Origin: a virus | IMG/VR virus record: IMGVR_UViG_3300030118_002208 | Span: 1-39,958 of that record | Direction: 5' to 3' (one strand) | Length of the DNA: 39,958 nucleotides | Shown: in pieces, positions 15,018-37,689 of the stretch | Numbering within the stretch: position 1 is the first letter of the stretch | Layout of the letters: each line of letters opens with the position of its first letter | Notes under the pieces: model-generated | Database searches by the model: none | What the model was told of the DNA's origin: nothing | The model's input: the letters and a program-made list of their open reading frames with translations, nothing else | Made by a program: the position numbers and the translations under genes

Positions 15018-16259
15018 TTAGTTCACCTTCCTTGCGAGGTTGTGTATGTCTCCCCATGACATCTCAGCAACTGCATCAGCAGTTGTTGGGAATCCTTCAG
15101 GTAGAGAGAAAGCGACTTCTGTTGCTTTCCTTATCTCATCATCCTTTGCAGTGAGGGACTTGCGTAGTTCTGCAAACTCCTCTTTGAGAGCCGCTACTTC
15201 TGTTGAAGCATCGTACTCTGCTCGCTCTGCGGCTGATTTCTTAACTTCAAGTTCAGCAGCAAACCTGTCAGCGAATTGCTTCGATAGGTTATCGTAAGCC
15301 ATTGCCTCTAGTTGCTCTGCCTTGTAAGCCTCGTAAGCCTTCTCTACGTTCTCGGCACTGAGGTCGAGAGTTGTGAAGTCAGAACCCTCAAGACCCTTAG
15401 AGACTGATAGTGCAGCAGGTGCTGCGACTGGCTTTCCGTTTACTACAACGTTCTCGCCAGCCTCATAGTCTCTAGTCGAGTCTTCATCAAGAGCCTTCTC
15501 TTCCATATCCATGCTCTCAACTTCGTCTTCCTTCATAGACATTTTATCTTCATCCATGTCCATGCTCTCAACTTCTTCTTTTTCGGTCATCATTTTTTCA
15601 TCTTCTTTCATTTCCATTGTTTCCAATTCATCTTCTTTTGCGACTGTTTCACCAGTGACTTCACGAACCTGCGTTAACAGACCGTTGAGTTCTTCCAATG
15701 CTTTCGTCAATTTTTCCGTCATTTCTTTACCTCCTTTCGCTTTCAAAATGTCGAATTTCGCTTCAGGGTTTATTCCTTTTTCACATATAGTAACTTCATG
15801 CAACTCCAAGTTGTCAATCTCGTTGTATTCCCCGTATTCCTCCGATTTTCTTTCTCTCTTTGATATCGCTTGTCCACCGATACTAAAGGAACGTAGTGTG
15901 CCTTTTCTGATTCCTCTGTTTATTTCCTTTGCCTTCTCTATGTCATCTCTCATCTTGATAACTACATAGAATCCGACACCATCTACACCTGTCTTGTGTA
16001 ATGTACCATTGGAATCACGGTATTGCTCTATCACCTCTCCTACCTGAACGTTGGAATGATTTGACATGACGTTTCTGTAAGACTTCTCACTCATGAAATC
16101 TTTAACGGCTTTTTCTAATGCTTCTAGTGTAATCAAGTCATTCTGCTTATCTACTATTTCGATGGATGCATATCCTCCGATTACTAGATTATCTGACTTG
16201 AGAATAGTGAAATCACTAGAACTCTCTTGTCTAATCAATACCTCCTGTTCAGCAAACAC
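15018..16259 (-). CDS. Prohead protease (XkdF/S78-like) fused to scaffold; carries a C-terminal tag
   Basis: A 413-residue protein with a GTG start preceded by AGGTG. Residues 1-155 resemble XkdF/S78-like serine proteases: VIGGYASIEIVDKQNDLI, the MSNHSNVQVGEVIE histidine site (H68) and GTLRSFSIGG with the likely catalytic serine (S124 or S126). Residues 160-400 are a Lys/Glu/Met-rich coiled scaffold. The extreme C-terminus reads EMSWGDIHNLARKVN, closely like the MSWxDILK peptide that begins many other proteins here. In P22 and herpesviruses the scaffold C-terminus binds the capsid protein. The same peptide here as a cargo tag suggests shared docking (inference). Confidence 0.85.
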   Translation of the reverse strand: MFAEQEVLIRQESSSDFTILKSDNLVIGGYASIEIVDKQNDLITLEALEKAVKDFMSEKSYRNVMSNHSNVQVGEVIEQYRDSNGTLHKTGVDGVGFYVVIKMRDDIEKAKEINRGIRKGTLRSFSIGGQAISKRERKSEEYGEYNEIDNLELHEVTICEKGINPEAKFDILKAKGGKEMTEKLTKALEELNGLLTQVREVTGETVAKEDELETMEMKEDEKMMTEKEEVESMDMDEDKMSMKEDEVESMDMEEKALDEDSTRDYEAGENVVVNGKPVAAPAALSVSKGLEGSDFTTLDLSAENVEKAYEAYKAEQLEAMAYDNLSKQFADRFAAELEVKKSAAERAEYDASTEVAALKEEFAELRKSLTAKDDEIRKATEVAFSLPEGFPTTADAVAEMSWGDIHNLARKVN

Positions 16260-16276
16260 TCACAGCACCTATTCCT

Positions 16277-16287
16277 TTTACTATAAG
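16277..16287 (-). promoter_or_regulatory. Possible TATA box before protease-capsid genes
   Basis: In the short gap between the ligase and protease genes the minus strand reads TTATAGTAAAA, 18-28 bases before the GTG start. This could serve as an archaeal TATA element for the head operon. It is a single weak match. Confidence 0.3.
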
Positions 16288-16297
16288 AAGTAGGCGG

Positions 16298-19359: not shown

Positions 19360-19584
19360 TCACCCCATTTTCTCCGTCATCTTGCGAATCTCATCCCAAG
19401 ACATTTGACCACCATCAGGGACTTGTGTATTGCCCATTGCTGGTGTTGGAGTCTCACGAACAACGAAACCTGACTTCATCAGTATGTTGTCCTTGTTGTA
19501 TACCGCTTGTTCCAAGGCATTCACCTTGTTCACAAGTTCTTTCATTAATAGTAACATTTCATCTTTTTCTTCTTTTTTACTCAT
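19360..19584 (-). CDS. Coiled-coil protein with C-terminal MSW tag
   Basis: A 74-residue protein, MSKKEEKDEMLLLMKELVNK, with a coiled coil over residues 5-40. It ends GQMSWDEIRKMTEKMG. That ending is a C-terminal version of the tag that opens its neighbours and strongly resembles the C-terminus of the protease-scaffold. Its start overlaps the upstream stop (ATGA). A coiled coil plus tag looks like a small adaptor or auxiliary scaffold (inference). Confidence 0.7.
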   Translation of the reverse strand: MSKKEEKDEMLLLMKELVNKVNALEQAVYNKDNILMKSGFVVRETPTPAMGNTQVPDGGQMSWDEIRKMTEKMG

Positions 19585-19895
19585 ACTTTTCCTTCTCCTT
19601 CTAGTTTGAATGACAACTCACCATCGCCTATGGCAAGTATTCTGTTATATCCCTTGTTAGCGTACAACTCTTTTGCCACTTCTTTTGCCTTCTTTGCTGA
19701 CATTTTCAAATCAGCGAGTTTAACATTTGCAAATCTGTGTTTCTTCTCACCTGCTTCTCTTATTATTGGGTCTACTTTCTCTCTAAACAAATCAATATAC
19801 TCAGGCATTGTTAGATTATCATTAGAATTATCACTAAATTCTGATTCTCTAGGATTCCTTATCGGTGGTGCTTTTAGTATGTCTTCCCAACTCAT
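19581..19895 (-). CDS. MSW-tagged small protein, 104 residues
   Basis: Begins MSWEDILKAPPIRNPRESEF. After the tag comes an acidic stretch and then a helical, basic region (KKHRFANVKLADLKMSAKKAKE) ending in a short beta hairpin (ILAIGDGELSFKLEGEGKV). ATGA overlaps occur at both ends, showing tight translational coupling. No known family. Confidence 0.68.
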   Translation of the reverse strand: MSWEDILKAPPIRNPRESEFSDNSNDNLTMPEYIDLFREKVDPIIREAGEKKHRFANVKLADLKMSAKKAKEVAKELYANKGYNRILAIGDGELSFKLEGEGKV

Positions 19896-20074
19896 TTACT
19901 TTCCCTCGCTTTCTTGTTTCGCTCTCGTATCATAGCCAATAGTTCTGCTTCTGTATCCTCAGTCCTCTTGGCCGCTTCTTTGTCCTGTCCGGTGGAGGCT
20001 GTCGTTGTAACTCTTGCCATCTCATCTGACTTCTCTGTGCCACAATCTCCCTTTAGTGTTTCAAACCAACTCAT
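19892..20074 (-). CDS. MSW-tagged small charged protein, 60 residues
   Basis: Starts MSWFETLKGDCGTEKSDEMA. The remainder is a charged helix (KEAAKRTEDTEAELLAMIRE). The ATG overlaps the stop of a 24-codon microgene, and its own stop overlaps the next ATG. Apart from the tag there is no fold signature. Confidence 0.66.
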   Translation of the reverse strand: MSWFETLKGDCGTEKSDEMARVTTTASTGQDKEAAKRTEDTEAELLAMIRERNKKARESK

Positions 20075-20145
20075 TCTAAATCACCTAACATTGGAAGGCT
20101 CATACCCTTATGCCACTCTATATCTTCAACGATTCTGAGTTTCAT
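20071..20145 (-). CDS. Microprotein, 24 residues
   Basis: The minus strand reads AAGGAGGAAAAGAAATGA, giving a strong Shine-Dalgarno and an ATG overlapping the upstream stop. The frame continues MKLRIVEDIEWHKGMSLPML then GDLE, and its TGA overlaps the next gene's ATG. Stop-start overlaps at both ends and a good ribosome site make it credible despite its size. Confidence 0.55.
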   Translation of the reverse strand: MKLRIVEDIEWHKGMSLPMLGDLE

Positions 20146-20471
20146 TTCTTTTCCTCCTTCTTCCCTTTTGGATATGCTACACTTCTGATTTGGTCATAAA
20201 GCGTTTGATAGTCTTTGCGAAGTTCGGCAGCACTTGCGAGTATGTCTAGGTTCTTCTCACGGAAGGACTTCATCTTCTTTGTGAGCAGTTTATCCGTCTT
20301 GACTAAATCGAGATTTTCCATCTCCTTGATGACTTCCTCTAACTTCGTCATCTCCTGTCCCATGTACTCAGTTGGTTGAGTTGACTGAAGAAGTTTCTTT
20401 ATCTTCTTCTTCTGTTTTGGCTCTAGTTTCTCTAGAAACTCGGAGGCTTTCAGTATCTCCTGCCATGTCAT
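20142..20471 (-). CDS. MSW-tagged helical protein, 109 residues
   Basis: Starts MTWQEILKASEFLEKLEPKQ. The tag is followed by Lys/Glu-rich helices throughout, with a probable coiled coil (ITKLEEVIKEMENLDLVKTD-like). Strongly basic C-terminus. The stop overlaps the ATG of the 24-residue microgene. Function unknown. Confidence 0.67.
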   Translation of the reverse strand: MTWQEILKASEFLEKLEPKQKKKIKKLLQSTQPTEYMGQEMTKLEEVIKEMENLDLVKTDKLLTKKMKSFREKNLDILASAAELRKDYQTLYDQIRSVAYPKGKKEEKK

Positions 20472-20492: not shown

Positions 20493-21632
20493 TCAGTTAA
20501 TTTTAATTGCCCTCTTTTTGCCTTTTCCAAGGTCAAACTCATAGTTACCTACTGTGACTTTAACAAGTTGCTTCATCTGCTTTTTTGTTTTCTCCAACTC
20601 ATTTACTTTGTTATCTTCTACTGCATTGTTTCTTAGATTTACAACATGCTCTAATATTTCTTCAATTTTATCGATTAAGGCAGGTATCTGTCCTGTTATC
20701 TTACGATAACTATCAAAGGCATCTAATTGCTCATCATAGATTTCCTTGCCCTCTAACGTATCTTCGATTTCTTCAGTAGTACCAAATATTGGAAACTCAT
20801 CGTCAGCAACTGCTTCTCTCACTGCGAGTTGCCAGTTTTTATCTTCTTCATCAAGAGATTTATTCAAAATGTTTTCCTGCTCATCTTTTATTCTGTCTAA
20901 GGTGAGAAGAAGTTCCCTAAATTGCCTTAGCAACATGTTAGTGTCTTCACCTAATTCATCCACATCTATTCTTTCACTGTCTCTCAACATTTCTACTAAT
21001 TTGTTGAGTTTGCCTCTCGTCATCTTCTTTCCAGTAAGTAGATTCCTTGGCATATCAGCAGCAGCCTCAAAGAATTCTCTTATTATCTCAAGAGATTCCT
21101 TGCCATTGTATTCCTTTTCTTCTTGACGATACTCGGCTGTATCTTCACTCATCTGTCTGAACTGTGATAGCAAACCCTCCTCGTCTTGCTCCATTGTGTC
21201 ATACCCCTTGAAGAATAGAGCCAATATTTCATCAGGTGCAGTTTGTTTTAGCAGACTCTGATAGAAGTCGTCTATCTTTTGCTTGCTTGTGCTTCTAGGA
21301 AACAAGTACGATTTGACGAACTCTCTCATTGTTCCTCTCATACCTGAATCAGTGACATCACCTGTTCGGCTGAATGTCTCTAGAATCTCCTTCCACATCC
21401 TGACTGTCTTGGCGGTAGCACTACGGCGTTCCTTATCTGCCTCTGCTACTTTCTTTCCCTCTTCGGCTTCTTGTTCTTCCTTTCTTTTCTTCTCTTCAAC
21501 AAGTTGTGTTCCAGTCGTGCCTTCCTCTTCTGAGGGGTCTATATCATCTTCTTTCTCTCTTCTGCTTCTGAATCTCTCTGTTACACTCTTCTTACGCAAG
21601 ATATCCATGAAATCCTGCGCCATCTGAATCAT
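20493..21632 (-). CDS. Helical protein with degenerate N-terminal tag, 379 residues
   Basis: ATG 21632 overlaps the upstream stop (ATGA). The first residues MIQMAQDFMDILRKKS contain FMDILRK, a degenerate form of the WQDILK tag. The remainder is helical and acidic with long charged runs (KKRKEEQEAEEGKKVAEADK), and near residue 80 an internal MWKEILETF also resembles the tag. It looks like an elongated coiled-coil protein. No catalytic motif is seen. Confidence 0.66.
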   Translation of the reverse strand: MIQMAQDFMDILRKKSVTERFRSRREKEDDIDPSEEEGTTGTQLVEEKKRKEEQEAEEGKKVAEADKERRSATAKTVRMWKEILETFSRTGDVTDSGMRGTMREFVKSYLFPRSTSKQKIDDFYQSLLKQTAPDEILALFFKGYDTMEQDEEGLLSQFRQMSEDTAEYRQEEKEYNGKESLEIIREFFEAAADMPRNLLTGKKMTRGKLNKLVEMLRDSERIDVDELGEDTNMLLRQFRELLLTLDRIKDEQENILNKSLDEEDKNWQLAVREAVADDEFPIFGTTEEIEDTLEGKEIYDEQLDAFDSYRKITGQIPALIDKIEEILEHVVNLRNNAVEDNKVNELEKTKKQMKQLVKVTVGNYEFDLGKGKKRAIKIN

Positions 21633-21859
21633 CCCCAAGGGTTGTTTGGTGTTCTTGACCGCTTTTTCTTAGGTAGTAGGATTGCATCGGGAACATCTGC
21701 TGAATCAGGTCTCTCCTTCTTCACAGCATTAGGGTCAACACCCCCAACAGAGAAGTCCCTGTTCTTCGTCACACTTCTACTGTGGTGAGCGTATTGCTCT
21801 GCTCTTGCTTTCGCTAGTTCTCTTTCCAGTTCTCTTACTCCTTTCTTTTCTTCTGTCAT
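21629..21859 (-). CDS. Small basic protein, 76 residues
   Basis: Starts MTEEKKGVRELERELAKARA, a short coiled coil, followed by a disordered basic tail ending KKKRSRTPNNPWG. ATGA overlaps on both sides. No tag and no recognised family. Confidence 0.62.
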   Translation of the reverse strand: MTEEKKGVRELERELAKARAEQYAHHSRSVTKNRDFSVGGVDPNAVKKERPDSADVPDAILLPKKKRSRTPNNPWG

Positions 21860-22110
21860 TTCTTTTCCTCCCTTAGTTCTCTCAAATCCTTTTCATCGAT
21901 GTCTCCATCTTTGTCTTTGTCGAGTTTCTTCTGACCACCGTATAGTGTCTTTTCCATCTCCTCTTCTGCAACAGCCGGGTCAACCGGATGCTCTCTTGCT
22001 TCATACATGTCCTTAGCAGGTTTGATTTTACCCTCTTCTGTATCCATCATATCACCACCAGCATCAGGCATTTCCATATCAGTTTGCTTAATTATGTTCC
22101 ACCATTCCAT
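21856..22110 (-). CDS. MSW-tagged EF-hand protein, 84 residues
   Basis: Begins MEWWNIIKQTDMEMPDAGGD, a variant tag. At residues 64-75 it has DKDKDGDIDEKD, a complete 12-residue EF-hand calcium-binding loop (D1, D3, D5, G6, I8, D9, D12 all in place). Only one loop is present, so it may dimerise or resemble a dockerin half. It is strongly acidic in the middle. The gene lies in a run of small basic tagged genes. Calcium binding is predicted from the loop only. Confidence 0.7.
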   Translation of the reverse strand: MEWWNIIKQTDMEMPDAGGDMMDTEEGKIKPAKDMYEAREHPVDPAVAEEEMEKTLYGGQKKLDKDKDGDIDEKDLRELREEKK

Positions 22111-22114: not shown

Positions 22115-22537
22115 TCACCATTTTACTTTGTTCGCCCAATACGCAGCAGAGGTCTTCCCACGCTTGATGTTCTTAGCATGACGAGCCTTGAACGAGGCTT
22201 GCTTCTTTTTTCTCTTTCCCTTTGGATTCTTCTCGGTTACTGTATCTGCACCTTGTTGTCCAAAGCGAATAGTCTTGACTTTCTTACCATCTCTGACAAC
22301 CACTACATGTGATTTAGTAGGATGCTTAGGAGTTCTCTTTGGTTTACTGAAACCACTCACACCTGCTCTTTTCAAAGCAGGGTGTTTCTCCCTCTTTAGT
22401 GTATCAAACCAATCCATAGATTTCTTGTATCCTGAAGCATAAGCGGCTGCTGCTTGTTTCTCCGCATCCTTGCGGTTGCGATAGACCTTGCCTTTACTTC
22501 CCCACTTGTATCCTCCTTTGACTTTACGAATCGGCAT
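22115..22537 (-). CDS. Two-module basic protein with internal MSW-type tag
   Basis: A 140-residue protein, ATG 22537 preferred over the GTG at 22546. Residues 1-38 (KVKGGYKWGSKGKVYRNRKD) look like a small phage module. A tag-like MDWFDTLKREKHP follows at 41-53. The C-terminus (SFKARHAKNIKRGKTSAAYW) resembles a short basic module seen in phage and giant-virus proteins. The internal tag suggests that a module was fused in front of a formerly tagged protein. Very basic overall, so nucleic-acid contact is likely. Confidence 0.68.
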   Translation of the reverse strand: MPIRKVKGGYKWGSKGKVYRNRKDAEKQAAAAYASGYKKSMDWFDTLKREKHPALKRAGVSGFSKPKRTPKHPTKSHVVVVRDGKKVKTIRFGQQGADTVTEKNPKGKRKKKQASFKARHAKNIKRGKTSAAYWANKVKW

Positions 22538-22542: not shown

Positions 22543-22815
22543 TCACTTCTGAGAGAACTTCCTTCCTGTTGGGACATGTTGCTTTCCTTTCTTACGACCC
22601 TTTCTTTTCTTTCTGTCTTGGTAGTCCAATGTCTTCTTTGGGGTTCTTTTGTATGTGGCCTTTGGCATGTATCTCCCCTTTGTTTTGGAAGGTACTTTCT
22701 TACCCTTCTCCTTTGCACGATGTTGTTCTTGACTTCCCCACTCCTCATCTGTCCAAGTAGCCAAGTCCTGTTGTGTCTTCTTCTTGGCCTTGAGAGTTGT
22801 AAACCAATCAGTCAC
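22543..22815 (-). CDS. MSW-tagged basic protein, 90 residues
   Basis: I place the start at GTG 22815, giving MTDWFTTLKAKKKTQQDLAT with AGGTGG upstream; longer frames upstream lie inside the PAP2 gene. It contains WTDEEWGSQEQHRAKEKGKK and GRYMPKATYKRTPKK, a short basic module that I associate with small phage and giant-virus proteins of unknown function. It overlaps the PAP2 stop by eight bases. The net charge is strongly positive. Confidence 0.68.
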   Translation of the reverse strand: MTDWFTTLKAKKKTQQDLATWTDEEWGSQEQHRAKEKGKKVPSKTKGRYMPKATYKRTPKKTLDYQDRKKRKGRKKGKQHVPTGRKFSQK

Positions 22816-23626
22816 GGTATCCACCACCTGCTTTCTTGTATCTCTGAGCAAGCAACTGTGCCTTTCTCGCTGACCACTTACCAGCAGGGCCACCTTTGCT
22901 ACCTGCTTTGATTCTCTGAAACATTCTTGCTCTCATACCGGGTTTGGTATAGTTACCTGCGGCATTAACGTTTGACTTCTTCCTCCTTCGTCTAGCCTTC
23001 TTCTTTTTTCTCTTCACGATATCTTGCCACTTCTCAATCTTAGACTCAGATAGATATGCATCAGCAATCAGAAGCCCTGCTTTTTTTCCGACCTCTATAT
23101 CGCTTGGATAGTGATTCCCCATTTTCACCCTAGAGAGTGATATCTTCTCTGCCATCTTGTTCAACTCCTCTTGCTTGTCAGGATACTGCTTTCCTAGAAT
23201 TCTTGCTAAAGCATGAGCCTCTATCGCATGACCGCTTGGGAAAGATGGGCTGTCATCCGTATCAGTTGTGGATTCTATCTCATCAGAAATCTCGTAAGGT
23301 CTTGGTCTGCCATACTTGACTTTCAGTTTGATGGTGTGGATATCGATATCCTCAATCAAATCCTCCCTGTCTTCCTTCTCCTCACCGACAATCTTCAACA
23401 TCATCTCGTTGTTGTTTTGGTCTAGGTCTTCCATCTCATCCTCGTCAATCTTATTGTCCTTCATCATGGCGAGAACCTTTGGCAGTTCCTCTTCGTTATC
23501 AGGATGCTCATAATCAGGAAAGTCTACCTTGAAGGATGGCTCAGACTCAAACAACCTTCTTTTCTCCTCGGATAGATTCTCAGGAGTGAACTTTGATTCC
23601 TGCTTGATTGCGTCAAACCAACTCAC
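22808..23626 (-). CDS. MSW-tagged soluble PAP2-family phosphatase
   Basis: With the GTG start at 23626 (GGAGGGA upstream) it has 272 residues and begins MSWFDAIKQESKFTPENLSE. All three PAP2/acid-phosphatase motifs are present: KX6RP (K100, R107-P108), PSGH (130-133) and SRX5HX3D (S165, R166, H172, D176). There are no membrane helices, so it would be a soluble enzyme removing phosphate from lipid, nucleotide or other phosphomonoesters. At 200-205 WQDIVK repeats the tag internally, followed by a polybasic linker. The C-terminal module GPAGKWSARKAQLLAQRYKK is a short basic unit frequent in phages. Tag plus enzyme suggests an ejected virion enzyme (inference). Confidence 0.82.
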   Translation of the reverse strand: MSWFDAIKQESKFTPENLSEEKRRLFESEPSFKVDFPDYEHPDNEEELPKVLAMMKDNKIDEDEMEDLDQNNNEMMLKIVGEEKEDREDLIEDIDIHTIKLKVKYGRPRPYEISDEIESTTDTDDSPSFPSGHAIEAHALARILGKQYPDKQEELNKMAEKISLSRVKMGNHYPSDIEVGKKAGLLIADAYLSESKIEKWQDIVKRKKKKARRRRKKSNVNAAGNYTKPGMRARMFQRIKAGSKGGPAGKWSARKAQLLAQRYKKAGGGYRD

Positions 23627-23727
23627 TTCTCTCCCTCCAAGTATTTCCTTATTCTCTCGTCTGTTTCTGCATTGAGTCTGTCTATCTCTTCCTTCCACTT
23701 CCTGACAAACTCAAGTATGTCGCTCAA
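23623..23727 (-). CDS. Coiled microprotein between portal and PAP2, 34 residues
   Basis: A TTG start at 23727 overlaps the portal stop (TTGA) and the TGA stop overlaps the PAP2 GTG start (GTGA). The product begins MSDILEFVRKWKEEIDRLNA and is a single charged helix. The double stop-start overlap and natural composition support it, but the TTG start and small size keep confidence moderate. Confidence 0.5.
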   Translation of the reverse strand: MSDILEFVRKWKEEIDRLNAETDERIRKYLEGEK

Positions 23728-25355
23728 CCTACTCTCCTCTCTGTCCGTGAATCAACATTCTGATTACCTGCTTCTTGTGGTAATCCTGTGAATCTCTTAT
23801 CAGGGCCAGTTTCCATAGATGGTTTGTTTCTAGTTTCCCCACCGCCTTGACCACCCATCAAAGCCTGTTCTTGTAATTGTCCTAATTGACTTGCATCAAT
23901 ATCAGTTCCTGCGTATGGGTCAGTCTCAACCTCTTCTTCTGCTCCTTCCTGTGGTGGTGCTTCGGGTTTAGGGTCAGGCTTCTTGAAAGTGAATCTTCCC
24001 TCGTCATCCATATCAACCTCAAAGCCGAGATTCTTGATTGATGCTGCTACGTTGACCTCAATCTCTCTCTTTCTTAGTTTGGCAATCTCATCCTCTTCCT
24101 CTGAAGGCGGTAGTTTTAGTTGCCAGTCTGTGATTCCAAACTCCATAGTCATGAATGGGAAGACGTACTCATTCCAAATCGTCTGTGCCATTTCGACTGC
24201 TCTGTTGGTTACGAGTATCTGCATACCCTCGTTGTTGAGACCGCCACTTGCAGAGTTATCTGCCATGAAGATTTTACTTACTCCGTAGAAGGCAGCGATT
24301 CTATCTCTCAAGTCTTCCTTGACTTGTATGTAGTCCATCTCCTTTAGGCTGTCCATGAACTTGACCCATTCAACTGCTCCCGTTTTTCCTTCACCTTCTA
24401 TACCCATCACTGGAATGAAGTGAGGGTCTTGCTCCATCTTCTCCTTCACGCCACGCCAAAAGGACTTCATCGATTCCATGTTTCTAGTTTGCACTGCTAG
24501 TATTCCTCTTGGCATTCTAGCCTTTGTGTACGAGGAGTTGACATAGTTCTCCATAGCGATAAGCGTGGTGATGTGATTCCACAGAGTCATTATCGGAGAC
24601 TGGCCGTAGAGTCTTGATGGTGCATACTTGCTGAAGTGTAGAACTTCTCCATCGATAAAATACTGCTCCTTTCCATTTGCCCTATTGACGTAATGAACAG
24701 GATGTAACTCAGAACCACACATCTCACAGGAGTCAGTCATTGACTTGCTGATGAAGTTTCGATGGTTCAAGCAAGTGAATCCCTCACTTCCTCTTTCACC
24801 ATTCTCATCAGCGTATATGTGCATACTAACAGGGTCTCCACGATAGACTTCTTTGATTCGATGCATACGAATGTCGCCATTACCATCGACATAGTATTCC
24901 TTCACCATGATTAGATATGCATCATCCATGATATTGAGGTCGTCTTCCATCTCCTTGAGAACATCAACGAACATCTGTTCTCCCTTGTTGACATACCCAT
25001 CGAGTAATTTCTTGATGTACTTCAACTGATTTCTATCGGGTTTAACTAGATTAGTGCTTCCACATTCAACACACTCTGTTACTGCTTGTTTGTGTTCCTT
25101 TGCACAGTCACCACAGCGAGCGGTGAACTTCTCTTCCCAAACATATCCTCTTCTGAATATTTCATTCTTCAACTGTGTGATGCATGTCCTAGCAATCACT
25201 GATTGATATGTGACATGGTATATTATCGGGGCTGTTATGAGATAGGATGTATCTTTCTCTTGTATTCCCGGATTGTATATCGTTCTGTCTTGGGGCTTCG
25301 GTGTTGTCCTGCGTGTTAATCGCTGAAACAACGAGGGTCTTTTTTCTTCTACCAT
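23724..25355 (-). CDS. Portal protein with two zinc-binding insertions
   Basis: A 543-residue protein. The portal signature is the region HFSKYAPSRLYGQSPIMTLW (about 240-260) with the following helices and the KIFMADNSASGGLNNEGMQI segment near residue 370. It forms the dodecameric ring through which DNA is packaged and ejected. Two metal-like sites interrupt the clip/wing side: CGDC...CVEC at 81-98 and CLNH...CEMC at 195-213. The C-terminus is Pro/Gln/Glu-rich and disordered. It starts one base after the LAGLIDADG protein. Zinc ribbons are uncommon in portals. Confidence 0.88.
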   Translation of the reverse strand: MVEEKRPSLFQRLTRRTTPKPQDRTIYNPGIQEKDTSYLITAPIIYHVTYQSVIARTCITQLKNEIFRRGYVWEEKFTARCGDCAKEHKQAVTECVECGSTNLVKPDRNQLKYIKKLLDGYVNKGEQMFVDVLKEMEDDLNIMDDAYLIMVKEYYVDGNGDIRMHRIKEVYRGDPVSMHIYADENGERGSEGFTCLNHRNFISKSMTDSCEMCGSELHPVHYVNRANGKEQYFIDGEVLHFSKYAPSRLYGQSPIMTLWNHITTLIAMENYVNSSYTKARMPRGILAVQTRNMESMKSFWRGVKEKMEQDPHFIPVMGIEGEGKTGAVEWVKFMDSLKEMDYIQVKEDLRDRIAAFYGVSKIFMADNSASGGLNNEGMQILVTNRAVEMAQTIWNEYVFPFMTMEFGITDWQLKLPPSEEEDEIAKLRKREIEVNVAASIKNLGFEVDMDDEGRFTFKKPDPKPEAPPQEGAEEEVETDPYAGTDIDASQLGQLQEQALMGGQGGGETRNKPSMETGPDKRFTGLPQEAGNQNVDSRTERRVG

Positions 25356-26703: not shown

Positions 26704-28140
26704 TCAAAAGTTGATACCCATCACACCGGATACACTACGCCGAGTAGTGGTAGGTTCATCAAAGATGTCCAAGTCATCCAACAAAACAAACTGTTCTCCT
26801 GTTCCCTGAGCAGCAGCATTTGCCAATGCTAAACTCATCACTAAATCGTCATGTGCGCCGACTCCCTCAAACTTACCACTTGTAGTTATTGAGAACATCG
26901 ATAGTTCCTCAATCAAAGCACCAGTCAGTCTTCTACTTGCATTATCACCATAAGGCATGATTATCTTCTGATTCTCTATATTCATCTGAAGATTTAGAAT
27001 TATCTCCTGTTTCTTCTTTCTAGTTGTGTTGAAGTCTCTGACATTCAAATCTGTCATATTCTTGAGTTCCTGTGTGAATGCCTTTGCGAATGTGTTAGTC
27101 TCAAATAGAATCTCTTCCGGCTCAAACACCTTACCAATCAAACGTATCTTCTCTATGTTCTCTCTGAACTCTATGTTCTTGGCTCTGTCAACATGAACGA
27201 TTGCCTTGTTCTTATTCTCATCCACCTCTAAAACTGTGATTACGTTATAGTCACCATCAGTTGAGATAGCAGGGTCAACACCGACATAGTATTTGTAGCC
27301 CTTGTCTTTCCTATTTCCTAGTTTCAAAATGTAGTCCTTGTTCTTACACTTCTCGATAAACTCAGGATTGAAGAGAGCAGTTCCAGTGGAGATTGGAACA
27401 CATAGATACTCTCTTGTAAACTTCAGAGAACCTATCTCTGCCTTCCTCTGCATTAGTGCATCGAAGTCCCAACGGTCAGGCCAAAGTGGTTCATTCAATG
27501 CATTGAGACATGGGTATTTCGTGACAGTGTATGCCTCGTTCTCTTCCAATTGTGCAAAGATATCAGTGTAGGTAAACGGTGTTCCAATCATCCTTAGTTT
27601 GGAAGTGTGATGCAAAGTAGGAATCATGTCACCGAAGAACCAATCTGTTACTCTCTGAATACCAGCGAGACTGAACTCCTTCAAGGGGTCGTCAATGATA
27701 ATCTCCTGTGGGTGAAGACCACGAATCTGAGAACCAACGGAACGCTCTAGAATCGCATTACCGTTGGTAAGTTGAATGTTCCCGATTGCCCATCCACGAC
27801 TAGGCTTGAATTGTTTCAACGCTGGATGGTTGAAGTATCTGTCAATCTCCCTCATGTGAACAAGGGTCTGCTTTTGGTTTGATGATATGTATAACATCTG
27901 AAAGGGAGGCTCTTGGAATATGAGATTCCATACAACCCAACAATGCATGAAGACTGACTTTCCGTGGTCTCTGCTACAAACGATAACTGTCCTGTCAGTC
28001 TTCTCCATAGACTCTAACCACTCTTTCATGTATTCAGGATACATCATACCCAATACGTTCTGAAAGAAATACGGAAATGAGTTTCTAGATAACTCCATAT
28101 CCATGCTAGATACGAAATCTAAGTTGTCTAGTTCAGGCAC
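26704..28140 (-). CDS. terL: Terminase large subunit
   Basis: A packaging ATPase/nuclease of 478 residues from GTG 28140 (GAGAGGTG upstream, start overlapping the previous stop as TAGTG); ATG 28173 would add 11 residues. ATPase: Walker A SRDHGKS at 56-62, Walker B IIIDDP with Asp150-Asp151. Nuclease: VGVDPA (D289), ILFETN (E347) and the HDDLVMSLALA helix (H430, D431, D432), the RNase H-like triad. It pumps DNA into the prohead through the portal and cuts concatemers. It is followed by the LAGLIDADG protein and portal. Confidence 0.95.
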   Translation of the reverse strand: MPELDNLDFVSSMDMELSRNSFPYFFQNVLGMMYPEYMKEWLESMEKTDRTVIVCSRDHGKSVFMHCWVVWNLIFQEPPFQMLYISSNQKQTLVHMREIDRYFNHPALKQFKPSRGWAIGNIQLTNGNAILERSVGSQIRGLHPQEIIIDDPLKEFSLAGIQRVTDWFFGDMIPTLHHTSKLRMIGTPFTYTDIFAQLEENEAYTVTKYPCLNALNEPLWPDRWDFDALMQRKAEIGSLKFTREYLCVPISTGTALFNPEFIEKCKNKDYILKLGNRKDKGYKYYVGVDPAISTDGDYNVITVLEVDENKNKAIVHVDRAKNIEFRENIEKIRLIGKVFEPEEILFETNTFAKAFTQELKNMTDLNVRDFNTTRKKKQEIILNLQMNIENQKIIMPYGDNASRRLTGALIEELSMFSITTSGKFEGVGAHDDLVMSLALANAAAQGTGEQFVLLDDLDIFDEPTTTRRSVSGVMGINF

Positions 28141-28625
28141 TAGAAAACACCTCTCATTAGAATGAACCTCCAACCCAAGTTCTTCTTGATGCCCCAGTCA
28201 TCACCATACCTCTGTCGAAACTTATCGACTAACTCTTCAGGTATTCCCATTAAATCATCAGTTTGAAACTTCAGATTTCTATGCAAACCAACCCATGTTT
28301 GCTGTGGTATCTTCGTAGACCGAAGCCCTAGAATCTTAGGTTTACCTGCTAACTTGTCCATCCTATACTGCAAGAGTGCCTTCCAGTTTCCACCGCCTTT
28401 CGGTGCTTTTCTGTCTCTCGCCTTCAACCCGCCTAAGATACCATAGTCTCCCTTGTCACTGTATCCAGCAATACCAACAACCTCACCATCATTTGTTCTA
28501 ATGACCCAATTATCCAAGTCATACCAAGAAGGAGCGTTTCTCACAAATGGGTCATCAGGGTTGTCCCTGTTCCACATGAAGATGGCATCTTTTTGGGATA
28601 CTTCCTTGATTTGTATATCTGCCAT
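28140..28625 (-). CDS. GNAT-like N-acetyltransferase domain protein
   Basis: A 161-residue protein; ATG 28625 has AGGTGAGGAA upstream, and longer frames overlap the preceding gene. The arrangement NWVIRTNDGEVVGIAGYSDK (strands 2-3), a basic loop KARDRKAPKGGGNWKALLQY near the pyrophosphate-binding helix and a following strand GKPKILGLRSTKI resembles the GNAT fold. The target is unknown. It abuts TerL, and its stop is fused with the TerL start, so it is co-translated with the packaging genes. Confidence 0.6.
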   Translation of the reverse strand: MADIQIKEVSQKDAIFMWNRDNPDDPFVRNAPSWYDLDNWVIRTNDGEVVGIAGYSDKGDYGILGGLKARDRKAPKGGGNWKALLQYRMDKLAGKPKILGLRSTKIPQQTWVGLHRNLKFQTDDLMGIPEELVDKFRQRYGDDWGIKKNLGWRFILMRGVF

Positions 28626-28629
28626 TTCC

Positions 28630-31593: not shown

Positions 31594-33488
31594 TGACCCA
31601 CCCCCTGTGATATCTGAATCCAAATTGCAGGTTCTACAAAGCCACCATCGGGACTAGGTATCTTAGTACCCATGACCTTGCCCTCTGCACTGATGTCTTT
31701 CATTCTATTCTTTACGTTGTCAAGGAATGTCCTTCTTACTTTAGGATACAACTCGATAACTAAATTCTTGAAATCCTCACTGCTTATATCCCCGTCTTCC
31801 AAGTCTCGCTCATCTATACCATCAGTCTCATATTTGTCATATATTGCATCATAGGAGTCAGACTTGAAGTATTCACTCAATCTCTTTATTGTGATGACAA
31901 TCCTATCCAGCGTTCCATCGTTTGCTGGATTCTTAGATGGGGTTAAATTGTCACTTATCGTATCTTCAAGAATAGACCAAGCATCAGAAACCTTCTCTTC
32001 CACGAAATATCTGAGTTTGGGTTTGTCTACATCGAGGGATTGCATTCTATTTGTCTTTCTATTGAGTCTCATATTCTCTAAAGCACCAATGACATCATCG
32101 ATGTCTCCGACCTCTTCCTCAATAGCATCCATGTTCTCAAACTTATCATTGATTCCTAGTTTCTTTATGGCTGCGGTGAAGTTCTTTGCGGAGTCATCCT
32201 CTAGTGCTTCGACTAACTCATCCCTTATCTCTTCGGTCATAGCGTTGGTTGTGTCACCCGATACCTCTGCCATCACCTCTTTGAATGCGGCATTCGCATC
32301 CTCGTCTGCCTTGATGTCTGCAAACATCCTTCTCTTCGCATCATTGCCCTTTCTTGAGAGACTGTCATACTTGTTCCTGTTGTCTTCCCTGAGTTTGATT
32401 CTTCTTTCTTTCTCCTCATCGGACTCTCCTTTAGGCCCAAACCAGTTCTCTATGTCTTGTTTGTACTTATCGTAAATGACGCTTATGCTTGGCTCGTCTA
32501 TTATTTCGTCTATTATCTTCCGCAAGGCTCTTTCCTCTACATTGCCACGCTTCTTGTAGGATGTCGGAACTGCGGATTGATTAAACTCCTCGTTCTCTAA
32601 TACGAACTCTAAGGCAGGTGACATTACTCTAGTTCCGAACAAAAGCAAAGTTCCTGAATCCTTGCTATCAGTGATGAAGTCTCTCTTCTTATCTCTGACT
32701 GAGGAGACATTCATTATCTTCTTGATGTAGTCAATCGCTACATCGTCACTGATGCTAGTCCCAATGTCTACTTGAGGAACACCGCCTATCTTGAGAATCT
32801 TCTTGATTTCAACTAGTTCAGGATACTTGTCCTCTGCATCACTTAGGATTATTCTTCTCAGAGTCCTGTTCGTCTGTATGAATCTCCTCACTCTTTGGTT
32901 ACTCGCATCTAACTTAGCAGCATACTTCTTCTTTCCTCTTCCTTGCAGGATTTTCAGGAGTTCTTCGTACTTCTTAGTCTTGATGAAACTCTTTACATCA
33001 GCATCGAGATTGCCTCTGATGTTTCCTTTACTGGTCTTCTTTGGTTTTATGTCATTCAATCGAGCAATGACCTCATCGACATCATCCACAACTTCATCCG
33101 GTTTGACTTCTTGTAACTTGAAGTCTGTTCCTCTAATGTTCACTACCTCTCCTTGAAGAAGTCTCTTTGCCTTCTGAACAGATTGTATTTGTGAAGAGGA
33201 CAAGCCATCTTTCGTATACTCCGCCCAAGTATCGTCATTAGACGCTGCTTGCCAAATCTCAAACGTTGGTGTGCCTCGCTTCACTGGAAAGTTCTTCACT
33301 TCCTGTTTGCCGAAATCGAAGAGATTCGCATCCTTCGTCTTTGCAGACTCCTTCTGTCTCTCTAACTTTCTCTTTCTGTCTTTGTGAAACTTCGCTCTCT
33401 TACCTGACTTGTCCCAAGTTCCCATCACTGGCTTCTCAACTGGTTTAGGGCCAATTTTCTTTTCCTTGAGAACGTCTTGCCAACTCAC
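31590..33488 (-). CDS. MSW-tagged large protein, 632 residues
   Basis: GTG 33488, preceded by GGAGGG, gives MSWQDVLKEKKIGPKPVEKP. After the tag is a Lys/Arg-rich linker (residues 15-60) and then a helical body rich in Asp, Glu and Lys up to the C-terminus. An upstream ATG (33503) would put the Shine-Dalgarno inside the gene. Start and stop overlap neighbours (GTGA, ATGA). This is the largest protein that carries the tag. No homologous family recognised. Confidence 0.72.
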   Translation of the reverse strand: MSWQDVLKEKKIGPKPVEKPVMGTWDKSGKRAKFHKDRKRKLERQKESAKTKDANLFDFGKQEVKNFPVKRGTPTFEIWQAASNDDTWAEYTKDGLSSSQIQSVQKAKRLLQGEVVNIRGTDFKLQEVKPDEVVDDVDEVIARLNDIKPKKTSKGNIRGNLDADVKSFIKTKKYEELLKILQGRGKKKYAAKLDASNQRVRRFIQTNRTLRRIILSDAEDKYPELVEIKKILKIGGVPQVDIGTSISDDVAIDYIKKIMNVSSVRDKKRDFITDSKDSGTLLLFGTRVMSPALEFVLENEEFNQSAVPTSYKKRGNVEERALRKIIDEIIDEPSISVIYDKYKQDIENWFGPKGESDEEKERRIKLREDNRNKYDSLSRKGNDAKRRMFADIKADEDANAAFKEVMAEVSGDTTNAMTEEIRDELVEALEDDSAKNFTAAIKKLGINDKFENMDAIEEEVGDIDDVIGALENMRLNRKTNRMQSLDVDKPKLRYFVEEKVSDAWSILEDTISDNLTPSKNPANDGTLDRIVITIKRLSEYFKSDSYDAIYDKYETDGIDERDLEDGDISSEDFKNLVIELYPKVRRTFLDNVKNRMKDISAEGKVMGTKIPSPDGGFVEPAIWIQISQGVGQ

Positions 33489-34009
33489 TGTGACTCCCTC
33501 CATTTTCTATATGTGCCAATTTGTGTGCCACTAGCAAACACCGGAGCATTATCCGGTATGGGTAAATTATTATCTAACATATATTGAACTGTTATTTTGT
33601 AAGGAATCATAGAGCCTCGATTTCTATATGTTTTAGTTTTCCCTCCATATTTTGATTTATACCTATTTTGTTTATAGTGTTCTAGATTACCAGTCAAGAA
33701 AGTACCAAAACCATATTTCGTTAGTTGAGGTGTCTGTATTTTGTTATCAATCTTCACACGCCCAAATGAACTCATTTCTTGATTATCAGGATATGTGAAT
33801 GTTTTGTGGTCTTTATTTCCATACCCACTACCACCAAAATACTTCTTGTAGTCACTACCAAACTCTTCATTAGGTAATGGTGTAGGGTCTTCGATAAACA
33901 CCAAAGGATTACTCAATGTTCCTTGTGCTTTTACATCTGAATCATAATCTGCTTGCACTTCTCTCCAATTTATATATGGCATTTTCAAAACGTTAAACCA
34001 ATCTTCCAT
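33485..34009 (-). CDS. MSW-tagged protein, 174 residues
   Basis: Begins MEDWFNVLKMPYINWREVQA. The rest is Gly/Tyr/Lys/Asn-rich with DYKKYFGGSGYGNKDHKTFT and YKSKYGGKTKTYRNRGSMIP, and appears beta-rich. The gene is clearly more AT-rich than its neighbours, which may mark a recent acquisition. Stop overlaps the next GTG. No family recognised. Confidence 0.66.
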   Translation of the reverse strand: MEDWFNVLKMPYINWREVQADYDSDVKAQGTLSNPLVFIEDPTPLPNEEFGSDYKKYFGGSGYGNKDHKTFTYPDNQEMSSFGRVKIDNKIQTPQLTKYGFGTFLTGNLEHYKQNRYKSKYGGKTKTYRNRGSMIPYKITVQYMLDNNLPIPDNAPVFASGTQIGTYRKWRESQ

Positions 34010-34309
34010 TTACTCACCCCTTAATGCTTGAGTAGTTTTACCATTCAATGTTCTAAGCATAACATGAACATTCTTTTTGAAATCATTTAGTTCACCAATA
34101 AATTTTCTCTTATCTCCTTCTAAAGAACTAAACCACTTCATATGTGCTTCAGGTGAAACTCTTGATTTTATATCCTCAGAGTGTCTTTGATGTAGTAGTT
34201 GTAAATCGTTATTTGCTAAATCAATGTTATCTATCAATCCATACAATGAATCTAATTCTAAGGGTTCAGTTAGGTCTTGTTTAACCTTTAGAATATCTTG
34301 CCAACTCAT
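34010..34309 (-). CDS. MSW-tagged helical protein, 99 residues
   Basis: ATG 34309 (AGGAG upstream, ATGA overlap with the previous stop) gives MSWQDILKVKQDLTEPLELD. The remainder is helical (NNDLQLLHQRHSEDIKSRVS). Its first 21 bases around the start are identical to those at 37608-37628 in another tagged gene. AT-rich compared with adjacent genes. Confidence 0.67.
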   Translation of the reverse strand: MSWQDILKVKQDLTEPLELDSLYGLIDNIDLANNDLQLLHQRHSEDIKSRVSPEAHMKWFSSLEGDKRKFIGELNDFKKNVHVMLRTLNGKTTQALRGE

Positions 34310-34968
34310 TGTAACTTCTCCTGCATCTTGTCTCTCACATCTAACCAAACTTCAGGATGGTTCTGTGCTAGAACCTCCTTGATGACCTGCATTTGATGAA
34401 CGATGATAGTGTCTTGCCTCTTATGCACCAGTTTGCCCTTGAATTCTAGCAAATACTTCAGAGACTCACGAACTTCCTTCGCTAATTTCGTCAAAGAGTC
34501 GATATATTTCGGGTCTGTTGAGTCTTCAGCAAAAAGTGTATCAATTTTTTGCTCCAATCTTTGAACATTCACACTCAGAGTCTCGATTTCGTCAACTTCT
34601 CTAGTTGCAATCAGGTTTGCAGCAGATTGTTGGACAATTGGCTGAAGATGTTTATCCATATGTCGCATAACTTGAGCCTCAGAGCAGTTTAGCATCTCTC
34701 CGACTGCCGAAGGAGTCACTTCTCCGGCATGAAGTTCTGCTTCTATCTCATGTCTCATGGGACTTGTGCAGATATTGCAACTAGGATTGGCAGAATCCAC
34801 ATATCCGCCCATGTGATTCCTCTGATGCTTCGCTGTTGTGCCACTTTTCCAGTTCATTTGTTGGTCGAGAGCGTCTGCTGTGTAATTCATGGCTTCCAAA
34901 TCAGCCTCAAGTTGACTTCTATCCTCATGCATACACAAAGGACAACGCTTTCTCGTAATCATACCCAC
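34306..34968 (-). CDS. Double zinc / HTH protein, candidate small terminase
   Basis: A GTG at 34968 or ATG at 34962 starts a protein with two tandem copies of a CxxC...HTH...HxxxH unit: CPLC...HQRNH (about residues 9-52) and CNIC...RHMDKH (64-107). Each holds a short helix-turn-helix between the metal ligands, a layout seen in phage proteins often placed with terminases. A coiled-coil helix follows (about 125-185). In phages with this fold, DNA binding is expected. A small terminase role is plausible because no other candidate is visible in the window, but TerL is 6 kb away. Confidence 0.62.
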   Translation of the reverse strand: MGMITRKRCPLCMHEDRSQLEADLEAMNYTADALDQQMNWKSGTTAKHQRNHMGGYVDSANPSCNICTSPMRHEIEAELHAGEVTPSAVGEMLNCSEAQVMRHMDKHLQPIVQQSAANLIATREVDEIETLSVNVQRLEQKIDTLFAEDSTDPKYIDSLTKLAKEVRESLKYLLEFKGKLVHKRQDTIIVHQMQVIKEVLAQNHPEVWLDVRDKMQEKLQ

Positions 34969-35058: not shown

Positions 35059-35061
35059 CTA

Positions 35062-36165
35062 TTACACCGCCTTGATAATTTCTCTCCAATCCGAAAAATC
35101 CTGCTTTTCTACCTTCCCTTCTGTTTTCTTGTTCTTGAAACCAGCGATTTCTGCCATGTTCCTAAGTTGCCTTCTTGAAATCGAAAGATAGACATTATCC
35201 AAATCTAATTTTACCTTAGAGCCTAACCAAGCCAACAGTTTCTCCGACTCAGCATCTGATAACTTGAACGATATCTTCCCTCTTTTGCTTCCTTCGTCTA
35301 TGAGTTCTCTGTGAACCTTCCTGTCAAGGAAGTTACCGCTTCTCTCAAACGTGTAAGCCGGGTCTTTCACTTTGCTATCGAACCAACTTCTGAATGCACT
35401 AAGATTCTCGTAGACCCATTTTGCCGCAACTCCCCTCTTTGCTCCTCTCTCTAGTTTCTCTAGGCGAAGAGGCTTCTGAGGAGTGTTGATGAACTCTGCC
35501 TTTGGAATTGCCTCAGTGAACTCCTTGCACAATTGAAGCAAACTAGGATGTTTGAAATCCAAACCTCCATCACCGAACAATGCTTGCCAAACAGGGGGTT
35601 TTGCCTTTCCTGCTTTCGTGTTGTAATAATGAGAGGGAACACGCTCAACTGTCCTGTCTTTATGCCTTCTCTGAAACTTCACATACTTAGGTGTCCTGAA
35701 ATCACCGAAGATATCCCTTCTTCCTAGAATCTTTCCCTGTTGGTCGTAAGATGTGATATCGTTGAATTTAATATTGGCTGGATTAACCTTGGAGGTTTCG
35801 CTATTCATTGCGTCTTCCAAGTAAGTCTGCAAATCTGCAACTGCTTGAATCTGTGCTGGTGTGAAGAACCCTTTCTTACCTGCATTTTTTGCCTTATCGA
35901 GATACTGTTGTAGAGGAGACTCTGCTGTTTTTCTGCTACCATCGGCTTGCGCTCTTCCAACTTTGCCCATATTGTCGATGAACTCCAAGATGTTAGTGCT
36001 TGTCCTGCCAGTATCCAACTTGAACTTTCCAGCCTCTCTCTCCCAAGCCACATACTCCTCGGAGAAGTTAGGTAATGCATCAGGGTCTTTAGGTTCTGCT
36101 ACCAAATCTTCGGTAATTTGCACTTCGGGAGTCTTCTTTTTTACGTTTCTTTTTCCCTTTACCAC
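35062..36165 (-). CDS. Basic protein with C-terminal MSW-type tag, 367 residues
   Basis: GTG 36165 has GGGAGGA about nine bases upstream. The product begins MVKGKRNVKKKTPEVQITED and ends QDFSDWREIIKAV, a C-terminal copy of the tag (SDWREIIK). A central region (about 130-260) is mixed alpha/beta with FRTPKYVKFQRRHKDRTVER, and the C-terminal part is basic and helical. It overlaps the upstream 64-codon frame by 77 bases. No enzymatic motif recognised. A +1 slip from the upstream frame in the Lys-rich overlap is a possible alternative start. Confidence 0.68.
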   Translation of the reverse strand: MVKGKRNVKKKTPEVQITEDLVAEPKDPDALPNFSEEYVAWEREAGKFKLDTGRTSTNILEFIDNMGKVGRAQADGSRKTAESPLQQYLDKAKNAGKKGFFTPAQIQAVADLQTYLEDAMNSETSKVNPANIKFNDITSYDQQGKILGRRDIFGDFRTPKYVKFQRRHKDRTVERVPSHYYNTKAGKAKPPVWQALFGDGGLDFKHPSLLQLCKEFTEAIPKAEFINTPQKPLRLEKLERGAKRGVAAKWVYENLSAFRSWFDSKVKDPAYTFERSGNFLDRKVHRELIDEGSKRGKISFKLSDAESEKLLAWLGSKVKLDLDNVYLSISRRQLRNMAEIAGFKNKKTEGKVEKQDFSDWREIIKAV

Positions 36166-36283
36166 GCTTCTTTCCTCCCCCGTAACTTATGTTGAACAAC
36201 GCCTGTGTCCCGGAGGAGGTTGATGTAACTGCGCCCTCCGCTCGCAGGATATTAAACCAAGAAGATTCGTATGGTGATGACAC
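36089..36283 (-). CDS. MSW-tagged basic protein, 64 residues
   Basis: GTG 36283 has a strong AGGAGGT seven bases upstream and gives MSSPYESSWFNILRAEGAVT; the tag (SSWFNILR) begins at about residue 8. The C-terminal half is polybasic (GKKRGKGKKKRKKEDS). It overlaps the next gene in another frame through a homopurine tract, so it may either stop here or feed that frame by slippage. Confidence 0.62.
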   Translation of the reverse strand: MSSPYESSWFNILRAEGAVTSTSSGTQALFNISYGGGKKRGKGKKKRKKEDSRSANYRRFGSRT

Positions 36284-36348: not shown

Positions 36349-36903
36349 TTAGAATTGGCCTTGTACGAACTTAGACTGAGGGTTGTCTTCAATGAATTGT
36401 CTTGCTCTTCTGTCCCTAACTAAGTTCATTGGATTGAGACCTCTTCTAGTTCGCCTAAGTGTGTTCATGAAGCCACTCCTGTTTCGCATTGCTTGTAGTT
36501 GTCTTGGGTCAGTTATTTTCTTTCCAGTACCGGGGTCTCTTGCAGTCTTAGGGATGCTAATAGTCATGTCCTTACCCATGAAAGAGCCTTTCGCTCTATA
36601 ACCTGCTTGCTTGAAAACGGCTTGCAACTTTGCCTTGATTCTATTTGGGTCTCCTCCTAACCTTCTGATTTGGTCTCGACCAACAACAAACGTGTCTCCT
36701 TGAGGGCCACTGTTAGCAGAGTTGTTGTCAACTCTCAACTTGAACTGTGGAAGTTGACCCATTTTTAGATTGCTCATTATGTTCGTAACGAATGGATTTA
36801 TCTGCTTCTCTTGGAACTCTTCTATCTTGGCATTTATTGCTCCTTCGTTTCCTTCTACGCCAAACTTAGGCACTACCTTCAGAACCTCTGTCCAATCACT
36901 CAT
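36349..36903 (-). CDS. MSW-tagged protein, 184 residues
   Basis: ATG 36903 gives MSDWTEVLKVVPKFGVEGNE; an in-frame ATG at 36915 sits against the Shine-Dalgarno. The middle contains FVVGRDQIRRLGGDPNRIKA and ISIPKTARDPGTGKKITDPR, and the C-terminus is basic (LRRTRRGLNPMNLVRDRRAR). The whole looks like a compact DNA- or RNA-contacting domain. No family recognised. Confidence 0.67.
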   Translation of the reverse strand: MSDWTEVLKVVPKFGVEGNEGAINAKIEEFQEKQINPFVTNIMSNLKMGQLPQFKLRVDNNSANSGPQGDTFVVGRDQIRRLGGDPNRIKAKLQAVFKQAGYRAKGSFMGKDMTISIPKTARDPGTGKKITDPRQLQAMRNRSGFMNTLRRTRRGLNPMNLVRDRRARQFIEDNPQSKFVQGQF

Positions 36904-36929
36904 CGTTAATCCCATACCACCTAAGTTAA

Positions 36930-37154
36930 TTATGATGTCGCTGCTGCATCAGAATAAAATCGCTTTTTGCACAAAGCACAAATCTCCCTTCCTTCAGGGT
37001 CTAAATCGCCTCTCATGAAATTCTTAGAACCACACTTGGCACACACATTCTCTGCTTCTTTCTCAGGAACTTCAGGAGTTTTGCTTCTCATTCTATCTCT
37101 CATTCTCATGTTATATTCCAAAGGGTCGAGTTTCAGAACATCGAACCAACTCAT
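36930..37154 (-). CDS. MSW-tagged zinc-ribbon protein, 74 residues
   Basis: Begins MSWFDVLKLDPLEYNMRMRD. Residues about 38-64 form a zinc ribbon: CAKCGSKNFMRGDL then CALCKKRF, with paired CxxC knuckles. The tag is connected by a short basic helix. ATGA overlap with the previous gene. A nucleic-acid or protein adaptor role is possible. Confidence 0.72.
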   Translation of the reverse strand: MSWFDVLKLDPLEYNMRMRDRMRSKTPEVPEKEAENVCAKCGSKNFMRGDLDPEGREICALCKKRFYSDAAATS

Positions 37155-37627
37155 AGTCTGCGCCTCGCAAATAACTGTTGATACTCTCTAACACTGCTTG
37201 CTATGTTTATTCCAAAACCAAGACTTACACCATCAATCTCATTACTCATCAACATCTGAAAGCCCCTATCGGTAGCGTATTCCGAATCTGAATCCTCAAA
37301 CACCTCATCAATTAATTCATCTTGTTTGGCTTCTTTCTTTATCTTTTCAAGTTCTCTCTCAGCCTGATAAGCCTTCTTTAGAGCAGAGTTTAGTTTTTGT
37401 CTAGTAAGTTCCGGGTGTTTGAATCCTTGACGAGTTATAAATTCCAACATTCGCATATCCTGTGGGATTGTTAAGTTGATTAACTGCCTCAACTTTTCTT
37501 CAACCTTCTTGAAACTAGGTTTCTCATAAGACTCTGAATATCGCTCTGCTTCAATATCTCTTCTTAGGGAATCTCTCTCAAGTTCCTCTTCAGCATCCAT
37601 CTCTTTCAGAATATCTTGCCAACTCAT
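37151..37627 (-). CDS. MSW-tagged helical protein, 158 residues
   Basis: Begins MSWQDILKEMDAEEELERDS with GGGAGAGGTG about nine bases upstream. It is highly charged and helical, with coiled coils around residues 40-105, and a more apolar C-terminal 40 residues. The tag DNA is identical over 21 bases to the start of the gene at 34309. First tagged gene in the transcription order. Confidence 0.7.
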   Translation of the reverse strand: MSWQDILKEMDAEEELERDSLRRDIEAERYSESYEKPSFKKVEEKLRQLINLTIPQDMRMLEFITRQGFKHPELTRQKLNSALKKAYQAERELEKIKKEAKQDELIDEVFEDSDSEYATDRGFQMLMSNEIDGVSLGFGINIASSVREYQQLFARRRL

Positions 37628-37689
37628 TTTCGATACACCTCTCCCTGATTGTATAGCACATCAAAATCAAAAGAAGTCGTGTAAATCAT
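37624..37689 (-). CDS. Microprotein, 21 residues
   Basis: ATG 37689 overlaps the stop of the GNAT-like gene (TGATG), and the TGA stop overlaps the next ATG (ATGA). The frame reads MIYTTSFDFDVLYNQGEVYR then K. Coupling at both ends is the only evidence, since part of the frame also carries the next gene's Shine-Dalgarno. Confidence 0.38.
   Translation of the reverse strand: MIYTTSFDFDVLYNQGEVYRK

Follow-up and report, generated by a model that had tools for sequence, protein, structure and literature searches.

We identified a short tryptophan-based peptide, with the N-terminal consensus M-[STND]-W-x-[DEN]-[IVT]-[LI]-K, that opens about 13 proteins encoded in the window, the whole stretch of 39,958 bases analyzed here (IMG/VR contig IMGVR_UViG_3300030118_002208), whose minus strand holds a cluster of head genes. 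We consider it probable that this peptide is a prohead-docking, or capsid-targeting, helix that loads cargo into the head, analogous to the capsid-targeting sequence (CTS) of T4. In addition, we found a C-terminal version of the same motif at the end of two further proteins, the protease-scaffold and a small coiled-coil protein.

Magrovirales are viruses of Poseidoniales and have been described as having 90-110 kb genomes, an ATP-dependent DNA ligase, and a PolB replication module transcribed opposite the head module (PMC12999244). The genes expected of this order are present in the window, including an HK97-type major capsid protein (MCP), an S78 protease, a portal, and the terminase large subunit (TerL), along with closeness to Druskaviridae and a ligase. 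A relative that is nearly identical to the window (G001; MCP and TerL about 99-100% identical) is 89.8 kb long, and its PolB and clamp-loader genes lie on the strand opposite to the head genes. As matched against the published description of Magrovirales, the window fits part of a magrovirus-like tailed virus. A TerL scan of bacterial and archaeal genomes gave matches only in contigs of one Maricaulis MAG; the magrovirus-like contig binned there (L257, NZMJ01000101.1), with a TerL 81% identical, is probably a mis-binned virus. Another record, IMGVR_UViG_3300021958_000021 (G039, 184,733 bases), has both the TerL gene and the scaffold gene in duplicate and is probably the product of two related virus genomes joined during assembly.

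Some neighbors of the head genes on the minus strand deserve mention in their own right. The ligase has several hundred residues outside its ligase domain and adjoins the scaffold within the head cluster in all relatives. Between TerL and the portal lies a homing-endonuclease-like gene (25357-26694), kept in 12 of 12 relatives, which matches a PHROG HNH family (7.5e-7) and no Pfam family. Downstream of the MCP, the gene at 11023-11694 may encode a Ras/Arf-type small GTPase, with matches to Roc at 5e-5 (under the curated cut-off) and Arf at 0.006.

A sequence-only reading of the window had listed the starts of tagged proteins, and every one of these bears the motif, the extent of which is far larger than first noted (Table 1). 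The motif of the protein starting at 36283 is present, although its Trp stands at residue 9, after the extended leader MSSPYESSWFNILR. Likewise, the copy described as internal to the protein starting at 22537 exists but is not truly internal, as it has its own ATG at 22417, which is the direct start in relatives. The degenerate copy noted at 21632 reads FMDILRK, with Phe replacing Trp, and is kept in relatives. Copies absent from the earlier list include three at C-termini (35062-36165, 19360-19584, and 15018-16259) and one inside the PAP2 protein. In relatives of the 35062-36165 protein, the C-termini read SWEEILKC, DWKEIVKVMA, and DWRTVMKV. The internal copy in the PAP2 protein precedes a polybasic module that in relatives (L176, L208) is a separate small tagged protein starting with MSWQDILKKKK, and this copy therefore looks like a fused tagged gene.

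Table 1. Head genes and copies of the tag in the window.
Feature	Positions	Strand	Remark
Tag MSWQDILK, N-terminal, ORF 37151-37627	37604..37627	-	
Tag MSWFDVLK, N-terminal, ORF 36930-37154	37131..37154	-	zinc-ribbon-like protein
Tag MSDWTEVLK, N-terminal, ORF 36349-36903	36877..36903	-	or start 36915
Tag with extended leader MSSPYESSWFNILR, N-terminal, ORF 36089-36283	36242..36283	-	SWFNILR..GAVTST conserved in relatives
Tag SDWREIIKAV (then stop), C-terminal, ORF 35062-36165	35065..35094	-	
Tag MSWQDILK, N-terminal, ORF 34010-34309	34286..34309	-	
Tag MEDWFNVLK, N-terminal, ORF 33485-34009	33983..34009	-	
Tag VSWQDVLK, N-terminal, ORF 31590-33488	33465..33488	-	GTG start
TerL	26704..28173	-	
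Portal protein	23724..25355	-	
Tag VSWFDAIK, N-terminal, PAP2-family protein 22808-23626	23603..23626	-	
Tag KWQDIVK, second and internal, PAP2 protein	23012..23032	-	
Tag VTDWFTTLK, N-terminal, ORF 22543-22815	22789..22815	-	
Tag MDWFDTLK	22394..22417	-	start Met in relatives; upstream start 22537 also possible in window
Tag MEWWNIIK, N-terminal, EF-hand-like protein 21856-22110	22087..22110	-	
Degenerate tag FMDILR near start, ORF 20493-21632	21594..21611	-	conserved in relatives
Tag MTWQEILK, N-terminal, ORF 20142-20471	20448..20471	-	tagged homologues in 11/12 relatives examined
Tag MSWFETLK, N-terminal, ORF 19892-20074	20051..20074	-	
Tag MSWEDILK, N-terminal, ORF 19581-19895	19872..19895	-	
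Tag MSWDEIRKMTEKMG (then stop), C-terminal, 74-aa coiled-coil protein 19360-19584	19363..19404	-	
ATP-dependent DNA ligase	16298-18862	-	854 aa
S78-type prohead protease with scaffold-like C-terminal half	15018..16259	-	family match
Tag MSWGDIHNLARKVN (then stop), C-terminal, protease-scaffold	15021..15062	-	
MCP, SU10-type, candidate receptor	13655..15016	-	

The C-terminal half of the S78 protease protein is a putative scaffold, and the motif stands at its end. In relatives with a readable C-terminus, the protein closes with [SDEA]-W-x-[DE]-[IVL], with His or Asn as the usual next residue, and this ending persists from 99% down to 45% identity while the preceding linker varies. The 74-aa coiled-coil protein, encoded two genes upstream of the ligase and present in 12 of 12 relatives, is unrelated to the scaffold, and its C-terminal Trp motif is found in 65 of 66 distinct homologues, with Phe for Trp in the remaining one. 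Together, the two endings can be summarized as [SDE]-W-x-[DE]-[IV]-H/R. C-terminal motifs occur in 47 of 652 MCP-strand ORFs, where 8.3 would be expected, and in 9 of 471 opposite-strand ORFs, where the expectation is 10.1. The presence of the motif at the scaffold's own end strengthens the idea of docking, and the cargo tag looks like a copy of the scaffold's docking end. The N-terminal tags favor Leu-Lys and the C-terminal ones show His or Arg, so the two versions could have different partners. Further C-termini resemble the motif to varying degrees. The gene adjoining TerL (28140-28691, minus strand) often ends in W-x-x-[TI]-L-[KR] in relatives (QWVDTLKKG, GWKDILRR), a possible C-terminal tag, and a possible small-terminase-like protein (34306-34968, minus strand) has the C-terminus VWLDV[RK]xxM in the 10 relatives in which we detected it; this ending may be another variant of the motif or may simply reflect the fold of the protein.

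We propose that the helix would use one face, formed by Trp, Ile, and Leu, to bind part of the head. The likeliest partner is the inner surface of the MCP, at the place to which the end of the scaffold itself would attach. Tagged cargo would enter the prohead together with the scaffold during assembly, would remain when the protease removes the scaffold, and would be released into the cell along with the DNA. Docking on the scaffold, which the earlier reading gave as an option alongside the inner shell, now seems the less likely arrangement; because the scaffold itself carries the motif, the scaffold's binding partner, the MCP inner face or the portal, is the likelier receptor. For the MCP inner face taken by itself, we would put the chances at about even. 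An AlphaFold model of the scaffold tail fused to the MCP (L110, with the stop read through) reached a pLDDT of 39.8, too low for a usable docking pose, probably because the alignment was shallow.

The proteins that carry the tag are soluble in character and highly diverse. Membrane-like segments were found in none of 94 tagged ORFs, compared to 64 of 585 and 57 of 514 other ORFs, and charged residues make up 35% of the tagged proteins. Among recognized bodies are a PAP2 phosphatase, EF-hand, zinc ribbons, GNAT, DUF5754, and DUF6321, together with 2H phosphodiesterase, pentapeptide-repeat, and polybasic bodies, and most tagged proteins fall in no family. The sequence-only reading had called the bodies unrelated, which agrees with the division of 118 tagged ORFs from 13 records into 69 body clusters; alignments of 66 and 90 cluster representatives have nothing in common except MSWxDILK. 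Across all loci, a set partly picked by the pattern itself, there are 215 body clusters. The tagged 2H phosphodiesterase (L253:7687-8100, minus strand; tRNA_lig_CPD, 2e-6) and the tagged pentapeptide-repeat protein (L164:3513-4274, minus strand), both encoded by relatives, are candidates for injected counter-defense proteins.

The nature of these bodies bears on an alternative in which the tag recruits proteins only transiently to the assembling prohead, as assembly or core proteins that are later degraded or leave, with no delivery into the cell. Both the scaffold and the coiled-coil protein that carry the motif are of an assembly type, and several tagged bodies resemble long coiled coils. 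However, this account sits poorly with enzymes, pentapeptide-repeat proteins, and zinc-ribbon proteins among the bodies, which also vary greatly among relatives, as injected effectors (the internal proteins of T4, for example) would and conserved assembly factors would not. We therefore regard purely transient recruitment as unlikely, though it is the most serious competitor to capsid targeting.

The distribution of tags was assessed across 13 related records, comprising the window and 12 stitched relatives with crudely called ORFs, using a six-position matrix (W x D I L K) with the threshold set to 12 for the strand test and to 10 for segment counts. At the former threshold, the MCP strand has N-terminal tags on 96 of its 774 ORFs and the opposite strand on 3 of its 600; shuffled proteins scored with the same matrix yield 0.1 and 0.5 matches, which excludes chance. 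At the latter, 50 of 261 ORFs upstream of TerL and 44 of 151 from TerL to the MCP are tagged (combined 94/412), as opposed to 1 of 202 in the 14 kb past the MCP, where the tail genes lie, and 3 of 600 on the opposite strand. Fisher tests of these contrasts give p values of about 1e-16 and 1e-35, which ignore the relatedness of the viruses and hence overstate independence. Ten more same-strand tags belong to G008 and G010, two records in which the cluster seems to continue from one contig end to the other. The 80 loci that were chosen by the scaffold gene and nothing else contain 169 tagged ORFs, every one of which shares the scaffold's strand. Both 10-kb flanks are present in 27 of these loci, whose 80 tags all fall 3-8 kb upstream of the scaffold gene, with 0 downstream. 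A strict DNA pattern matched 46 times in 22 relatives, each time on the MCP strand, and its reversed form had 0 matches. The link to head genes that was first suggested from one window is thus borne out in the viral records examined, with tags upstream of TerL and from TerL to the MCP and almost never among tail or replication genes. In three genomes, one tagged gene each lies on the opposite strand with its tag retained; the tag thus goes with the protein and not with the location.

This distribution also makes it improbable, more so than transient recruitment, that the tag serves late proteins for a purpose other than packaging, as a short linear motif recognized by a factor of the host or by a viral factory (for example, a degradation adaptor, a clamp, or a membrane surface). 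An amphipathic Trp helix could have many partners, and the host is uncultured, so a host partner is possible. Such a motif would nonetheless have to be limited to the half of the late cluster that encodes the head, be almost absent from tail genes on the same strand, and recur at the end of the protease-scaffold.

We also examined how specific the tag is to this virus group by scanning 2.9 million viral contigs with a DNA pattern for MSWx[DE]IxK, which gave at least 120 matches. Among the matches listed, 45 contigs of at least 25 kb were tested, and 32 of these encode a TerL 57-92% identical to that of the window, with 4 further contigs encoding relatives of the window's MCP or PolB. Most of the remaining contigs tested have single matches in a holin-like family (MSWKEIFKD) or in short or membrane ORFs, and we judged these to be chance or unrelated matches rather than true tags. 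As for the tag in unrelated viral genes, a check proposed in the earlier reading, the listed IMG/VR matches elsewhere were thus mostly contigs of the same virus group.

Several features are consistent with the tag being a short helix. In an AlphaFold model of the 74-aa protein (mean pLDDT 65, last block about 70), an N-terminal helix of coiled-coil length is followed by a disordered linker and a last helix that begins exactly at Trp63. The residue preceding Trp in N-terminal tags is S/T/N/D/G in 164 of 181 clusters, compared to 43% at residue 2 of untagged ORFs; together with D/E/N at the second residue past Trp, which is set by the pattern definition, this resembles a helix capping box. The tag would thus form a short helix that is capped by Ser, Thr, Asn, or Asp and presents Trp, Ile, and Leu on the same side. 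No conserved residue that might mark a cleavage site follows the tag Lys in the ORFs found with the matrix or in the tagged clusters, although cleavage may take place elsewhere in these proteins.

At the DNA level, all six Leu codons are seen in the tag and Lys codons are at background usage, and on this codon diversity we rejected a pure DNA repeat as the origin of the tag. AGT is the Ser2 codon of 50 of 52 tags, compared to 23 of 60 in untagged ORFs, and tag codons from the same genome agree at 0.52, where 0.39 would be expected; it is therefore probable that gene starts have, in addition, been copied from one gene to another. While these two biases would suit a nucleic-acid element, such as a translation start context or a recombination hot spot with the peptide as its by-product, the diverse codons, the C-terminal and internal copies, and the chemically conservative substitutions make that explanation very hard to credit.

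If capsid targeting is correct, this would be the first capsid-targeting code in an archaeal virus, and we know of no broader one; among open-licence papers, we found none that combines an archaeal virus with capsid targeting. A single motif would then serve as a test for virion cargo among unknown magrovirus proteins, yielding a catalogue of more than 200 candidate injected proteins. It would tie cargo loading to the docking end of the scaffold and may offer a compact, modular peptide with which proteins could be packed into capsids of this kind. Whether a whole order of viruses, abundant and infecting marine archaea, uses one scaffold-derived peptide code to load hundreds of effectors and inject them along with its genome is, in our view, evenly balanced.

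The closest cultured relatives, HVTV-1 and HCTV-1 of the Druskaviridae, have a homologous MCP (25-28%) and head maturation protease (31-34%) and share the gene order terminase, portal, protease, MCP with the window. In contrast, their protease C-terminus is without the scaffold motif, and a search of their head genes found no MSWxDILK tags. HVTV-1 gp113, gp115, and gp116 (L259), from the head region, have a common module, VYxxSxxEAPExxxV..G, possibly an unrelated structural module. In herpesviruses, the protease is fused to the scaffold, which has a short conserved capsid-binding C-terminal segment after a flexible linker. The protein described here is similarly a protease-scaffold fusion with a short conserved C-terminal end behind a flexible linker, for which capsid binding is putative. 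We know of no herpesvirus cargo that carries a copy of the scaffold's C-terminal peptide.

Among phages, an N-terminal signal directs the large P1 protein DarB into the head (PMC9024508). The P1 Dar proteins have no common N-terminal consensus (PMC9024508), whereas the consensus is the hallmark of the tags described here. The T4 CTS is a ten-residue N-terminal sequence of the internal proteins IPI-III and Alt (PMC9026906, PMC3012670) and suffices to load foreign proteins into the head (PMC9026906, PMC10229621). In both systems, about ten N-terminal residues are shared by divergent, fast-evolving soluble proteins of a virus with a prohead protease and a scaffold (a putative one here), and key residues are three apart (4 and 7 in T4, PMC9026906; Trp3 and Ile6 here). 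Unlike the T4 peptide, the tag is Trp-based, belongs to an archaeal virus lineage, marks many more cargo families, and also occurs at C-terminal and internal positions, with the same motif closing the protease-scaffold. In T4, a prohead protease cleavage site adjoins the peptide; as the tag has no such adjoining site, and as the T4 peptide was compared by positions only, we do not place it in the T4 CTS family. In outline, the tag likely works like a capsid-targeting sequence, and we infer the last steps of that scheme, in which cargo would stay in the head and leave with the DNA.
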